DNA from: Bdellovibrio sp. ZAP7 | Lineage (GTDB): Bacteria; Bdellovibrionota; UBA1018; CAIMNF01 | Assembly (NCBI GenBank): GCA_945874535.1 | Contig: CAMCGZ010000013.1 | Span: 1 to 64,000, forward strand | Direction: 5' to 3' | DNA: 64,000 bases | Shown here: positions 13,868 to 21,498 of the stretch, one piece after another | Position numbering within the stretch: the first letter of the stretch is position 1 | How the letters are laid out: the number at the start of each line of letters is the position of its first letter | The notes under the pieces: model-generated | Told to the model about the DNA's origin: nothing | Database searches by the model: none | What the model saw: the letters and a program-made list of their open reading frames with translations, nothing else | Translations under genes and position numbers: made by a program

Positions 13868-15214
13868 TTACTTGGCCTTCTTCTCTTTGATCTTGGCAGC
13901 TCCGAGGATGAACCGGATGGTCAACTCCTCGCGAACCCGGTATTCAAAATTGGAACGGTCCCGTGGATTGGCTTCGAACCGTGACTTCAGGGACTCGGCA
14001 TCGGTGCCGAAGCCGGCGGCCATCTGCTGGAGCTCGGCATCCAGATCGGCCTCCTTCGCCTCAATCTTCTCTTTTTTGGCGATCGAATCGAGAAGGATTC
14101 CTGCACGGACCTGGGTCTCAGCGCGCTTTTTGAAATCCTCGAGCTGGCTCATGATCGCAGACTGGACCATCTGGTCATTGAAACCGTAACGCTTGAGCTC
14201 GTTTGCGTAGTCATCCGCAAGAGCGCGCATCTGGCTGTAAACCAGAGCCTGTGGCACCTCGAAACTGTTCTTTTCGATCAGCTTCTCGATCATCTGGTTG
14301 CGAAGAAGGTTTTCGTTCTCTTCCTTCTTGGTCTTGGCCAAACGCTCTTTGGACTTGGTTTCGAAATCGGCGGAGCTTTCAAAGCCGAACTCTTTAGCCA
14401 ACTCCTCGGTCCACTCGGGAAGCTTCTTTTCTTTCACTTCGCGAACATCGATCGTGTATTCGGCTTCTTTGCCTGCGAGATTCTGGTCCTTGTAGTCGCT
14501 GGCGTAAGTCATCTTGAAGGTGTTCGTTCCACCGGCCTTCACACCGATCAGACCCTTTTCAAATTCGGGAATCAGCTGGCCGCTGCCGATTTCGGCGGTG
14601 CGGTTGCCTGAGAGATTGGCATCCGGGGTGAAGCCCGCATCGGTCTTCAATTTTCCTTCGTATTTGAAATCCACATAATCGCCGGTTTTTGCGGCGCGAT
14701 CGACGGGAAGCATCTCGGCCTTGCGGTTCAGGAGATTCTTTTTAACAGCATCAAGGTCTTCTGCGCTCACTTCATCGGTGGCTTTTTCGAGAGCCAGTCC
14801 CTTGTAATCCTTAGGCTCGACTTCTGGCACGATTTCGACCGTGGCCGCGAAAGAGAGCGGCTCACCATCGTGAATGTGAATGTGGTGGTGCTGGTGACCT
14901 TCTTCTCCTTCGTGTCCGTGGGGAACACCCTCGATCTGGGGCTCGCCGACGATGCGAAGCGGGTGCTGCTGGAGCGCCTCGGAGTAGGATTCGCTGATCA
15001 GCGACTGGAGGGCGCGCTGCTTCACGTCCTCGGCGTAAAATTGCTTCACCATGTTCAGAGGAACCTTGCCGGGGCGGAACCCTTTGATCGATGCCGTCTT
15101 CTGAGTCTCGAGGAACTTCTTCTCAACGGTCTTCTGAACCCGGTCTGCCGGGATGGTGACCAGGAACTTCTTCTGAATGGGGGAAATGGTTTCCAACTTG
15201 ATTTGAGTTTGCAT
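13868..15214 (-). CDS. tig: Trigger factor (ribosome-associated PPIase chaperone)
   Basis: KGFRPGKVPLNMVKQFYAEDVKQRALQSLISESYSEAL; FKBP-type middle domain; Tig C-domain. Confidence 0.95.
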   Translation of the reverse strand: MQTQIKLETISPIQKKFLVTIPADRVQKTVEKKFLETQKTASIKGFRPGKVPLNMVKQFYAEDVKQRALQSLISESYSEALQQHPLRIVGEPQIEGVPHGHEGEEGHQHHHIHIHDGEPLSFAATVEIVPEVEPKDYKGLALEKATDEVSAEDLDAVKKNLLNRKAEMLPVDRAAKTGDYVDFKYEGKLKTDAGFTPDANLSGNRTAEIGSGQLIPEFEKGLIGVKAGGTNTFKMTYASDYKDQNLAGKEAEYTIDVREVKEKKLPEWTEELAKEFGFESSADFETKSKERLAKTKKEENENLLRNQMIEKLIEKNSFEVPQALVYSQMRALADDYANELKRYGFNDQMVQSAIMSQLEDFKKRAETQVRAGILLDSIAKKEKIEAKEADLDAELQQMAAGFGTDAESLKSRFEANPRDRSNFEYRVREELTIRFILGAAKIKEKKAK

Positions 15215-16025
15215 AGGGCTCTGGTTTATACCAAACCCGCTCCAAAGTCAGCCCTTTTGCAGGCGCAGTGGGTCCGACGGCGTGCCGGTCACCGTTACGC
15301 AACAAATCGGGCATTTCTGAGGATTTGCGATGTTTTTCGCCGATTTGGAGCAGGGTCCCCGCGATTCCGCGGACCATCTGCTTCAAAAACCCCGTTCCGA
15401 CGAGCCTGACCCGGACCATGGAATAGCCGGCCTCATCCAAATCCTGACCGGGAAAGGCGGGCATCGGAAGCCGGGAGACCTCCGCCTCGAGGATCGTCCT
15501 GACCGTGGATTTCCCCGGGTTTCCGCCGGAGGCCTGGAACACCTTGAAATCATGTTCCCCCACCAGGCAGGAGACCGCCTCTTGCATGGCAACTTCATCC
15601 AACCGGCGGTGAATCCACCAGGAGACTTCCTTCCATTGGGGCAGATCGGAGGGCCCCTGAAGGAAGTAGTAGCTGTATTGCTTCTTGATCGCGGACCTTT
15701 GGGCGTGAAACTCCTCGGGAACGCGCATGGCTTCCATGATCCGAATGTCGCGTGGAAGCAGTGAGTTCAGCCCCCGCCTGAGCACATCAGTGGTGAACCG
15801 GTCCGTGGACAAACGAAAGTGGACCACCTGTCCGAGCGCATTCACCCCCGCATCGGTCCGTCCGCTTCCGACCACGGTTACGGCATGATTCGCCATTTTT
15901 GAAAGTGCGGCCTCAACCGTTTCCTGAATGCTCGGAAGAAGGTCCGGGCGCTCCTCCGCCAACTTCTGCCGTTGCCAACCGCAGTAGTTCCGTCCGATGT
16001 AAGAGATCCGGAGTGCGTACTTCAT
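15123..16025 (-). CDS. truA: tRNA pseudouridine synthase A
   Basis: MKYALRISYIGRNYCGWQRQ; VVGSGRTDAGVNALGQVVHF; start chosen at MKYAL. Confidence 0.93.
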   Translation of the reverse strand: MKYALRISYIGRNYCGWQRQKLAEERPDLLPSIQETVEAALSKMANHAVTVVGSGRTDAGVNALGQVVHFRLSTDRFTTDVLRRGLNSLLPRDIRIMEAMRVPEEFHAQRSAIKKQYSYYFLQGPSDLPQWKEVSWWIHRRLDEVAMQEAVSCLVGEHDFKVFQASGGNPGKSTVRTILEAEVSRLPMPAFPGQDLDEAGYSMVRVRLVGTGFLKQMVRGIAGTLLQIGEKHRKSSEMPDLLRNGDRHAVGPTAPAKGLTLERVWYKPEPYANSNQVGNHFPHSEEVPGHHPGRPGSEDR

Positions 16026-16030
16026 GCCCG

Positions 16031-18241
16031 TCAGATCTCGAATAGGAAGCCGGCGTAGACCCCGGAGCGTCCAAATGAGACTCCCGTACGATTGAAAGAG
16101 GACAGATAAAAGTATTCTGCCACGAGATAAGTGTGTTGGATTCCACGGGAGAGCCATCCGTCGAGCGCAGTCTTGGAATCGAAGAAATCGAGTGCGAGCG
16201 CCAACCCGCCACTTCCGGTGAAAGCGAATGAGTAACCCCGCTTGTCGCCCGCATCATCTTCACGGATCTCGGAGTAAAACACCGCTCCTGCTCCGGCCGA
16301 AACATAGGGCCTCAAAAACCGGAGAAGGTTGAAGCGGTATGTGGCGTTCAGGAGCAAGGGAATCTGAAGGAAGGTGAATCGGGTTTGGGAAACAGAGCTG
16401 CTGTTGAAGTTAAAACTGAGGAGTCCGTAACCTGTCGAGTAGCTGAGCCCCGTATCGAACCCCAACCCAAAACTCCCGAGAAATTCTGAATGGAACAACT
16501 GTCGCTCATAATGGAGCATGAGCTCCGGTTGCCAGTTCGTTCCGTAGAGTGCGTCGAAACCGATGGTCCCGGTGGAGTTGGTGACCGTCATGCCGGGAGA
16601 GACGCCGATCTTGAAGCCGATGGCTGATTCGATGTCGGGACGTTCCAGCACCGCCTTTTTGGAATCCGATGACTTCTGCTCAAGCGGTCCCGACAGCCAG
16701 GGATCTTCACCGATTTTCTGTCGTTCTTTTTCCGTATACCCTTCGACCGATTCCTCTTCTGGAAAGTTGGTGCCGATTCTTTGTGAATAAGTTCCGGGCC
16801 GCGAAGGAGGTGCTGCTGGAGCGGTCGGTGGATTCGCTTCGTCCGGGATGTCGAGGGTCGGATTCCCTTTCTTGAGACGATCGATGTAGGGCTGTGGGGA
16901 TGAAGCCTCATCGGCCCCCGAAAACTCCAACCAGAGCCAAGCGGCCAGCTCGACTGGTGCCAGTAAACGGAGTGCGAAGGAGCGGATCACCGGCTTGTCC
17001 CAGGCCCACTCCGCGAAGGCCGGCGAGTGCCGGTAGTAGGTCCGGATGAACTCACGACCGAAAGCGGTTTTGGCGAGAATCCGGTCTCGGAACTTCCGGA
17101 GCATCATCACCGGTGCAGCACGTCCGTCTTGGTAGGCGGCTGTTGCAATGAAGCACTTGCTTTCGGTCAGAACACCTTTGATGGACTGCGAAGCCACATA
17201 GGGTGACGGGACGGTACAAGAAAGGGACGAAATCAGGCCAACCTCGTTTTGCGAATGAAGGTAGGCCTGGTAAACGTTGTCGGCCCCGTTCACCGAATTG
17301 ACGAAACCCGTTACGGCCTGACTCCCACCCACAATATCGACGTAGGCGGTGATCTCGTTCGACGGAAGCGTGTTGGTGGTGATCGCATTCAGAGGAAAAC
17401 CGGAACTCACCCGGCTCGCCATGAAGAGCAGCGACTCGACCGAAACCCCCGAATCACTCACGGTCGCTCCGGCACCCGTACCGGAACTGTAGTTGGAGGG
17501 ATTGATGTAAACCTGTCCATCTCCTGGAAAGTAGTAATCGCTGATTCCTCCGGAGGGGCAGGAAACGGTGGGTGCGATATCGGAAACAGACAGCGTGAAA
17601 GTTGTCGTATCGACGGTTCCGCCGCTGACGGCTCCCGTTGTGACGTAATCGTTCACCACGCTGAAGGTGACGACGATCGGTTGAGTGAGCGTTTTTCCGG
17701 CCAAGGTGCTGTAAGCATTACTGGCACAGAGGCTGCCCGTAGAAGCGCCCGGAGTATTGCACAGGCTCGAGAATGAGAATGCGACTCTGAGCACGGTTCC
17801 GAACTGATAGGCCGCGGAGAGGTTCGAAGCTCCCGTGCGGGAACCTTGGCAGGAAATGTTTCCGTTGGCCCCGCAAACCGGAGGCTCGGTATTACTTGAA
17901 ACGATTCCTGCTCCGTAAAGTGGAATTTCGCTCCCAGCGGTGGAGTTCACGGACAGTGTCACCACGATGTGCTGATTGGCGTTGACCGTGAAAGGTTTGT
18001 TGCTGCTCACATCGAGCCAAACCATATCGTCCACAGTGGAGGAATCCGTTTCGAGAAAACGGTAGCCCGCTGTCCCGTTGACGAAGCCCGAAAAAGGATT
18101 CCCGCTCGCACTTCCCGCCAGCGAAATGGTGTATCCGGTGTCACCCAGTACTCTCTGGGGCAAAGGAGCAGGCGGATTCACCAGGACCGTGGCACCTGCA
18201 CTCCAGCTGAAAACCAGTCCTGCCAGAATCCAAGCCAGCAT
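16031..18241 (-). CDS. Secreted protein: N-terminal passenger, internal CFI-box domain, C-terminal outer-membrane beta-barrel
   Basis: Signal peptide; CFIATAAYQDGRAAPVMMLRKFRDRILAKTAFGREFIRTYYRHSPAFAEW in mid-protein; alternating amphipathic strands ending ...GRSGVYAGFLFEI. Confidence 0.8.
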   Translation of the reverse strand: MLAWILAGLVFSWSAGATVLVNPPAPLPQRVLGDTGYTISLAGSASGNPFSGFVNGTAGYRFLETDSSTVDDMVWLDVSSNKPFTVNANQHIVVTLSVNSTAGSEIPLYGAGIVSSNTEPPVCGANGNISCQGSRTGASNLSAAYQFGTVLRVAFSFSSLCNTPGASTGSLCASNAYSTLAGKTLTQPIVVTFSVVNDYVTTGAVSGGTVDTTTFTLSVSDIAPTVSCPSGGISDYYFPGDGQVYINPSNYSSGTGAGATVSDSGVSVESLLFMASRVSSGFPLNAITTNTLPSNEITAYVDIVGGSQAVTGFVNSVNGADNVYQAYLHSQNEVGLISSLSCTVPSPYVASQSIKGVLTESKCFIATAAYQDGRAAPVMMLRKFRDRILAKTAFGREFIRTYYRHSPAFAEWAWDKPVIRSFALRLLAPVELAAWLWLEFSGADEASSPQPYIDRLKKGNPTLDIPDEANPPTAPAAPPSRPGTYSQRIGTNFPEEESVEGYTEKERQKIGEDPWLSGPLEQKSSDSKKAVLERPDIESAIGFKIGVSPGMTVTNSTGTIGFDALYGTNWQPELMLHYERQLFHSEFLGSFGLGFDTGLSYSTGYGLLSFNFNSSSVSQTRFTFLQIPLLLNATYRFNLLRFLRPYVSAGAGAVFYSEIREDDAGDKRGYSFAFTGSGGLALALDFFDSKTALDGWLSRGIQHTYLVAEYFYLSSFNRTGVSFGRSGVYAGFLFEI

Positions 18242-18250
18242 CCGACCTCC

Positions 18251-18985
18251 TCAGCCTTCCTGGGGCTTTCTCAGAATGCAGATGTATCCGGCCCAAAGTA
18301 CCGACAACACGAGATACAGGTATCCGGTCAGAAACAAGGTCATCTCGGGAGCCTGGATGGCCGAGAGTATGAACAACACCGGCACCAGCAGGATCCAAGC
18401 CTTTCCCTTTGAGCGCCAGTTGACCTCCTTGAAGGAAGGAAAAGGAACATGACTGACCATGAGCAAGCCGAACAGAATTCCAAGTGCGCTCATGAAAATG
18501 GGAAGGCTTTCTACCGGGAACCAGGAGAACTTATCCTGAACGAGCACGGTGGTCACAATCAGACCCGCCGAGGCCGGAGAGGGAAGTCCCTGGAAATACC
18601 CTTTTCTAATCTTGGCGAGCTTGGTCGGATCTTTTTCTTCCACGCTGACGTTGAAGCGTGCCAGGCGGAGTGCTGCTCCGATGGCATAGAGAACTGCGGC
18701 ACTCATTCCGAGGCTGGCGTTTTGGGCAGCGAAAGAATAAAGCAAAATGGCAGGAGCGATCCCGAACGAGGTGAGGTCAGAGAGAGAATCGTACTGAACA
18801 CCGAAGGCTGAAGTGGCCCGAGCGAATCGGGCGATCCTTCCATCGAGGGAGTCACAAACCGCTCCGATCACGATGTACCAGGCCGCTCTGAAATGGTCTC
18901 CCTGCAGGGAGTGGATCATGGAGAGAATGCCACAGACCAGATTGGCCGTAGTCACCAGATTCGGAAGGATGTAGATCTTCTTCAT
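18251..18985 (-). CDS. pssA: CDP-diacylglycerol--serine O-phosphatidyltransferase
   Basis: CDP-alcohol phosphatidyltransferase motif DSLDGRIARFARATSAFGVQYDSLSDLTSFG. Confidence 0.92.
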   Translation of the reverse strand: MKKIYILPNLVTTANLVCGILSMIHSLQGDHFRAAWYIVIGAVCDSLDGRIARFARATSAFGVQYDSLSDLTSFGIAPAILLYSFAAQNASLGMSAAVLYAIGAALRLARFNVSVEEKDPTKLAKIRKGYFQGLPSPASAGLIVTTVLVQDKFSWFPVESLPIFMSALGILFGLLMVSHVPFPSFKEVNWRSKGKAWILLVPVLFILSAIQAPEMTLFLTGYLYLVLSVLWAGYICILRKPQEG

Positions 18986-19887: not shown

Positions 19888-21498
19888 TCAGTTGAAAATG
19901 GGCAATCTTGAAATGTCGTTCTTCATCACCACAATCATGATGAGGAGAATGAACACGAGACCGACAGTCTGAGCCACCTCGAGTTGCTTCAGGGACAGGG
20001 CTCTGCCCCGGATCGCCTCGATGCCGAGCAATACGATGTGCCCACCGTCCAAAACAGGAATCGGCAGGATATTCAACACCCCGAGGCCGATCGAAAGGAT
20101 CGCCATCATTCTCAGGAAATCCATGAGACCGCGACTGATCGAGTCTCCAGCCAGCTTCCCGATCAGAATCGGCCCACCCAGCGACTTCACCGATACCTGG
20201 CCTTGAACCATCTTTCCAATCGACACGATGTTGCGGACACTCAAGTCGATCATCCTGCCAACACCCTTGTATACGAGAACAAATGGGTTGAGGATACGCT
20301 CGATCACCATCTCGGGTTCGAGCATGGTTGCGACCGGAATGACGCCGACTGTGAACTGTTTCAGGGTTTTCAGCATCGGATCACGCTCGGTGGTCATGGT
20401 CGGAATGACCTCGTAAGTGACGGTCTTCCCTTCCCTGACGACAGTCAGATTCAACTTGCCGTGGGCCTCTCCCGCTTTCTGGATATTCTTGCGGAGCTCG
20501 AAAAAGCTCCGGATCGGGACCGCGTTCACGGCCACCAGCTGATCGCCTTTCCGGATTCCGATTTTCTCTGCCGGGGACTCCTTCACCGCCTGCTCCACGA
20601 ACAACTCCGAAGAGAAAATTCCGAGATCGGTTCCGGGATTACCTGTGGACTTCGCTTCGATTGTGACCTCACGGACCTTTTGGTCGGACTTGACCTCAAA
20701 ACGGAACGGAGGAGTCGCACCGGAATAAGCCGACTCGAACTCTTCAAAGCTCTTCAACGGCTTGCCCATGAATGACACCAGTTCGTCTCCGGTTTTCAAT
20801 CCAGCCTTCCCGGCGGCACTCTGAGGGGAGGAAATCCCGATCTTGCCCGAGCGCCCCGAAGGAATCAGACCATCGAGGTTCCCGACAGGCTTGTTCTCTC
20901 CATATTGGGTGAAGCCGTCTTCGGTTCCGGTCCTGGCCCGGAGACTCATGCGAGCGGAGGATCTCTCCACTTCGAGAACGACCTCGCTCGCTGGACGGTC
21001 AGATATCTTCTGCATCAGTTCTTCAAACTTCGATACCGGCTCACCCGCAACGGAAAGGATCTTGTCGCCGGGACGGAGCCCCGCGGTTGCTGCAGGGGTA
21101 TCGGGAAGAACCCGCCCCACCACTGTCGCCACCTGTTGCTCGCCGATCGCCATCATGGCCATGAACACGAGTGCAGCCCAGATGAAATTGAACAAAGGGC
21201 CGCCGAAAAAAATGAAAAACCGCTTCCAAGGCACCTGGGAATGAAGGGCCCGCTTCCGCTCCTCATCTGTGAGGGGAGCCGTCGGATCTTCTCCCAACAG
21301 CTTCACATACCCACCGAGGGGAATGGCTGAAAGGCGGAACTCGGTTTCTCCGAAAGTCTTCTTCCACAAGACCGGACCGAAACCGACCGAGAATGCATCG
21401 GCACGGACACCGAAAAGTTTGGCAAAAAGAAAATGCCCGAGCTCATGCACGACCACGAGCGGAATCAAAACGACCACGAAACCGATTAAAGAAATCAC
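19888..21498 (-). CDS. rseP: Site-2 protease RseP/RasP family zinc metalloprotease
   Basis: VVHELGHFLFAKLFGVRADAFSVGFGP; three PDZ-like segments; NILPIPVLDGGHI. Confidence 0.94.
   Translation of the reverse strand: MISLIGFVVVLIPLVVVHELGHFLFAKLFGVRADAFSVGFGPVLWKKTFGETEFRLSAIPLGGYVKLLGEDPTAPLTDEERKRALHSQVPWKRFFIFFGGPLFNFIWAALVFMAMMAIGEQQVATVVGRVLPDTPAATAGLRPGDKILSVAGEPVSKFEELMQKISDRPASEVVLEVERSSARMSLRARTGTEDGFTQYGENKPVGNLDGLIPSGRSGKIGISSPQSAAGKAGLKTGDELVSFMGKPLKSFEEFESAYSGATPPFRFEVKSDQKVREVTIEAKSTGNPGTDLGIFSSELFVEQAVKESPAEKIGIRKGDQLVAVNAVPIRSFFELRKNIQKAGEAHGKLNLTVVREGKTVTYEVIPTMTTERDPMLKTLKQFTVGVIPVATMLEPEMVIERILNPFVLVYKGVGRMIDLSVRNIVSIGKMVQGQVSVKSLGGPILIGKLAGDSISRGLMDFLRMMAILSIGLGVLNILPIPVLDGGHIVLLGIEAIRGRALSLKQLEVAQTVGLVFILLIMIVVMKNDISRLPIFN

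Follow-up and report, generated by a model that had tools for sequence, protein, structure and literature searches.

The window analysed here is a 64,000-nucleotide stretch of DNA from Bdellovibrio sp. ZAP7, and the subject of this work is one open reading frame in it, located at 16031-18241 on the (-) strand and encoding 736 amino acids plus a stop codon. A ribosome-binding site, GAGGAGGT, with a GGAGG core can be read from the sequence before the ATG (18245-18252 (-)). The upstream neighbour is a pssA-like CDP-alcohol phosphatidyltransferase (18251-18985 (-), Pfam PF01066), which ends 9 nt upstream of the frame, and the downstream neighbour is truA (15123-16025 (-), Pfam PF01416), which starts 5 nt downstream of it; both types of neighbour are found at the same place in other families. 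The same gene cluster also contains an RseP-like M50 intramembrane protease with PDZ domains (19888-21498 (-)). The 736-aa protein was matched in 56 of the 58 genomes searched as relatives. Nearly all genomes compared are metagenome assemblies, and pattern and hydropathy, rather than a trained predictor, were the basis for calling signal peptides, transmembrane (TM) helices and cleavage sites.

The encoded chain begins with a putative signal peptide (residues about 1-17, SAGA|TVLV, 18191-18241 (-)), which was read from the sequence and is modelled as a helix at residues 2-9. The AlphaFold2 model, built on 33 aligned sequences, then gives a beta-rich passenger (residues about 18-350, 17192-18190 (-)), a CFI region made of helices, a linker modelled as disordered and a C-terminal barrel, the eight strands of which span residues 539-735. 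The CFI-box domain occupies residues 363-429 (16955-17155 (-)) and starts with the invariant Cys363, the codon of which lies at 17153-17155. The distal CFI helix (417-440) and a remnant hydrophobic segment, delineated by the structure model and by hydropathy, make up residues 417-443 (16913-16993 (-)), and at the end of this segment there is a signal-peptidase-I-like site S-G-A|D-E (residues 441-443, 16913-16921 (-)) that fits the pattern [AS]x[AS]|[DEQA]. The linker (residues 444-535, 16637-16912 (-)) has low pLDDT and the lowest conservation in the protein; it carries YIDRLKK/GYTEKER-type motifs, and in relatives several copies of a Y-x-x-x-x-K-x-x-L-like motif are present between signal peptide and barrel. 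The outer-membrane beta-barrel (residues about 536-736, 16034-16636 (-)) was assigned from NCBIfam matches and Foldseek.

The CFI_box_CTERM model (NF041770) matches residues 363-429 with an E-value of 1.5e-20 and 72.8 bits, above its curated cut-off of 40. The protein thus has a full domain match including the invariant Cys, like the CFI-box-CTERM proteins, but differs from them in that 307 further residues follow the domain in the encoded chain, whereas elsewhere the domain is C-terminal. The CFI region is also the best conserved part of the protein, with 24 of 69 columns invariant. The barrel blocks mostly have pLDDT > 80 and their best PDB matches are OmpA (E 4e-8), NspA, Ail and OmpX; the predicted fold is shared with these proteins, while sequence identity is about 12% and the domain context is different. 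According to the curated rules the barrel is a homologue and not a member of the MXAN_2562 family (NF040596: 70.2 bits, E 1.8e-19, cut-off 100), and it likewise stays outside OM_Bd0486 (NF053801: 71.5 bits over the barrel part only, cut-off 370). The NCBIfam search of the window protein gave no match to the MXAN_2561 passenger (NF045522) or to the TraB model, and no HMM match to MYXO-CTERM (TIGR03901), of which the Cys is present and the TM helix and Arg-rich tail are absent; the Pfam search gave nothing significant. The first-pass annotation, made from the sequence alone, had described a CFI box inside one chain at these coordinates, between a secreted passenger and a C-terminal barrel: the HMM match and the structure model agree on this order of parts, and the barrel is a real outer-membrane barrel with eight OmpA-like strands.

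A separate model of the CFI box (81 sequences, pLDDT 79) is all-helical, and the search for a known fold returned no PDB match better than E 5.8. The alignment shows little or no variation at the Cys, F-x-A-T-A, an R, a G, a Y and other columns. The G-C-F motif brought to mind self-processing at Gly-Cys as in Hedgehog proteins, but with a predicted fold that is all-helical this is no more than an analogy. The box had been taken for a C-terminal element of Bdellovibrio-type and related bacteria. It is indeed usually C-terminal (51 cases with a TM helix and 20 without; long extensions follow it in 4 sampled proteins), but it is not confined to such bacteria and occurs in many phyla, including an archaeon. 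None of the texts searched mentions 'CFI-box'; MXAN_2561, MXAN_2562 and Bd0486 were not found in them either, and Bd0487, which two papers mention, could not be tied to the gene studied here.

Each of the 13 genomes from the window's genus and family carries the fused gene, and the rest of the order has either two genes or one gene that keeps a TM helix, a basic loop and an internal signal peptide. In the split form, a TM helix and a basic tail close the CFI protein; the separate barrel gene encodes a signal peptide of its own and in most cases shares a few nucleotides with the CFI gene. On a tree of the order built from CFI region plus barrel, fused and split states alternate several times; outside the window's family its deep branches have weak support, which makes any count of fusions approximate. 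This sequence-based tree shows that the fusion arose, or was reversed, several times. Within the window's family the TM helix survives in a single member, G005, which is the first to branch off; the other 12 members have lost it together with the basic loop. The open reading frame is a fused form of an old, syntenic gene pair with the order pssA-(asd)-CFI protein-barrel-truA.

The fusion had been proposed to tie the passenger to its barrel, and the two are joined in the encoded chain, but a bridge in the mature protein is doubtful given the alternation of fused and split forms, the internal signal peptides and a conserved cleavage-like site. This [AS]x[AS]|[DEQA] site lies 79-84 residues after the CFI Cys in 12/12 TM-less fused family members, compared with a mean of 19% and a maximum of 58% for the same pattern in background windows of equal size; the 12 members are related to each other and their agreement is support, not proof. 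A cut after residue 443 would leave 81 residues counted from the CFI Cys on, and the TM-less C-terminal CFI proteins of other phyla (20 of the 71 C-terminal cases) end 73-89 residues from the Cys. Because the signal-peptidase-like site is kept in 12/12, the encoded chain is probably cleaved, which would put the CFI box back at its usual C-terminus. The hydropathy of the remnant segment is 1.24-1.59 in the window's family, while fused relatives that have a TM helix are at about 2.0-2.5. The one hydrophobic stretch left is thus marginal, which weighs against ready access of signal peptidase to the site and makes any topology tentative.

One could argue that the chain stays whole. A covalent link would then tether passenger and CFI box to the barrel within the periplasm, with the CFI box serving as a structural bridge for which a TM anchor is no longer necessary. 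The loss of the TM helix and basic loop, the marginal remnant stretch and the high conservation that the CFI box keeps in the window's family are all consistent with such a tether. However, the same proteins kept the signal-peptidase-like site, and the fusion comes and goes in the tree of the order, as expected of a link without a function of its own. We thus consider a lasting tether rather unlikely and prefer a precursor that is cleaved.

The pairing of CFI box and barrel is not restricted to the window's order. We surveyed 144 Bdellovibrionota genomes and, among the matches listed for Bdellovibrionota outside this order (short second CFI proteins left out except one), 34 of the 50 CFI matches are followed directly, at 345-885 nt and on the same strand, by a barrel of the MXAN_2562/Bd0486 type, and none has it upstream. 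The 16 listed matches lacking the barrel comprise 12 from one family, 1 at a contig end, 1 short paralogue and 2 further large paralogues. The commonest form is a CFI box with a TM helix and an Arg/Lys tail, followed by a barrel gene with its own signal peptide, often with a 4-nt overlap. Other families preserve the gene order pssA, asd (in some of them), CFI, barrel, truA; the names asd and truA were read from the sequence there. One Bdellovibrionota family (f15: L216, L217, L218, L219) has CFI-like proteins of ~430 aa that end in a TM helix, and no downstream barrel was detected there.

Members of the MXAN_2562 family that score above the cut-off are located beside CFI genes, or fused to them, in Nitrospirota, Pseudomonadota and Myxococcota. 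A second, weakly TraB-like barrel was found downstream of CFI genes, and never upstream, in 10 of 30 sampled loci from Omnitrophota and their neighbours; 4 of these 10 repeat loci used to build the model, which makes the fraction rough. Barrels of this kind, downstream of CFI proteins or fused to them, were seen in Omnitrophota-like and other genomes at L061 1731-2693, L068 4504-5484, L113 4273-5142, L076, L081 and L059. For the majority of the CFI proteins sampled in other phyla, the models used detect no neighbouring barrel. The recurrence across phyla makes the combination of CFI box and barrel more general than had been proposed from the window alone.

A close known counterpart is MXAN_2561/MXAN_2562 (NF045522/NF040596), which we take to be neighbours in M. 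xanthus, judging from the locus tags and the Myxococcota loci analysed. In both cases an exported passenger with a Cys-headed tag immediately precedes an eight-stranded barrel, which is of one and the same type, and fused forms exist in Myxococcota as well. The window differs in that its tag is a CFI box of about 68 residues instead of the short MYXO-CTERM, its passenger and barrel lie below or outside the curated models, and its TM helix and basic loop are lost. The window's passenger shows a weak similarity to the MXAN_2561-type passenger of Myxococcota (hhalign E 1.9e-4, probability 48%), which is suggestive of remote homology at the sequence level.

The Myxococcota loci illustrate an exchange of tags. 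Judged by pattern, the passengers upstream of MXAN_2562 barrels carry a MYXO-CTERM-like tag at 22 loci and a CFI box at 6; one more locus (L200) is a seventh of CFI type, with a degenerate box. At E-values up to 1, NF045522 matches 28/28 of these passengers, TIGR03901 matches 15 and CFI_box 6. A profile of the MYXO-type passengers detects the CFI-type ones with E 1e-32 to 1e-54, both types share a single invariant alignment column at the tag Cys, and on the barrel tree the type of tag requires at least 3 changes, 2 of them forced by well-supported branches. The Cys of MYXO-CTERM is required for cleavage by the myxosortase MrtX, MrtX is required for surface anchoring in M. xanthus, and lipidation of MYXO-CTERM proteins is predicted in this organism (PMC11980579). 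Because homologous passengers beside the same barrel carry either tag at one shared invariant Cys, the CFI box probably does the kind of job that MYXO-CTERM does, often in genomes with no known sorting enzyme. The earlier suggestion that this architecture bears on the function of the CFI box was well founded.

A further parallel is the outer membrane exchange pair of M. xanthus: the gene of the MYXO-CTERM surface protein TraA overlaps the gene of its outer-membrane partner TraB by four bases (PMC3325183). The weakly TraB-similar barrels downstream of, or fused to, the Omnitrophota CFI genes (E 5.6e-9 at best, far below the TraB cut-off of 700 bits) recall this arrangement. Contrastingly, the window barrel is of the MXAN_2562/Bd0486 type and nothing indicates a TraA PA14 domain or Cys repeats. 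It is an attractive but tentative generalization, with a little less than an even chance in our estimation, that MYXO-CTERM has a widespread counterpart in the CFI box, independent of known sorting enzymes. The box would be a helical tail, headed by a Cys, by which an exported protein is placed next to an outer-membrane barrel of its own, and TraA/TraB and MXAN_2561/2562 would be two cases of a general arrangement found in several phyla.

Another possible reading is that CFI boxes are processed by a CPBP protease exactly like MYXO-CTERM, and the same position and same Cys of the two tags on homologous passengers favour this view. However, CPBP proteases (PF02517, the class of MrtX; E 1e-5) have no match in 12 of the 22 CFI-bearing Bdellovibrionota genomes, including that of the window (96% complete), whereas 9 of the 11 comparison genomes that lack the CFI-barrel pair do have a match. 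Processing by a myxosortase is thus improbable. Exo/archaeosortase and, above its cut-off, rhombosortase are each found in 0/15 CFI genomes, and the rhombosortase matches below the cut-off also appear in 14/14 control genomes. CPBP, exo/archaeosortase and rhombosortase were accordingly all rejected as the CFI enzyme.

The order of signal peptide, passenger and C-terminal barrel also led to the proposal of an autotransporter-like, self-secreting pore, with the barrel delivering the passenger of the same chain to the cell surface. This reading fails because an eight-stranded barrel is too small for the passenger: the translocator barrel of type V autotransporters is twelve-stranded, and the fold predicted here is of the OmpA/NspA/Ail type. 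Both termini of such eight-stranded barrels are expected in the periplasm. Moreover, in relatives the barrel has a gene and a signal peptide to itself, and GspD of the type II secretion system is present in 15/15 genomes checked, so that we regard autotransport as very improbable. Finally, most genomes here are metagenome-assembled and an assembly or reading-frame error could in principle mimic a fusion, but the chance of this is negligible, as independent assemblies of 11 related genomes besides the window's carry the same stop-free fused frame and fused frames occur in further families and phyla.

The explanation that we favour, with modest confidence, is that the window gene is a fused two-gene module, the precursor of which is cleaved so that the CFI box holds the passenger at the membrane beside the barrel, as MYXO-CTERM would. 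One part of the module would be a beta-rich surface protein that is exported by Sec and has at its C-terminus a localisation signal headed by a Cys, the other a small eight-stranded outer-membrane barrel. The fusion, which arose or was reversed several times, left the TM helix, the basic loop and an internal signal peptide in place, and the window's family then lost the helix and loop and retained the signal-peptidase-like site. Signal peptidase would split the precursor after residue 443 into a passenger with a C-terminal CFI box and a free barrel, which would insert through BAM. By its invariant Cys and its helices, the CFI box may keep the passenger membrane-bound and close to the barrel, a role that MYXO-CTERM has for the homologous myxobacterial passenger and that, in many genomes, would be performed with no known sorting enzyme.

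The natural exchange with an experimentally characterised tag (PMC11980579) provides a concrete hypothesis for the function of the common CFI box. As known sorting enzymes are missing from many CFI genomes, the box would depend on another, unrecognised processing route or on none. The recurrent barrel partner defines a gene pair that is testable in a cultivable Bdellovibrio or myxobacterium.

The CFI box is also found in a protein that a purely export-side anchor does not explain. The window's genome encodes a second CFI protein of 239 aa on contig C1 (L002 1006-1725 (+)), beside genes read as priA and lepB, in which pattern and hydropathy gave no evident signal peptide or TM helix. This paralogue is conserved: similar short CFI proteins are present in most Bdellovibrionota genomes searched.
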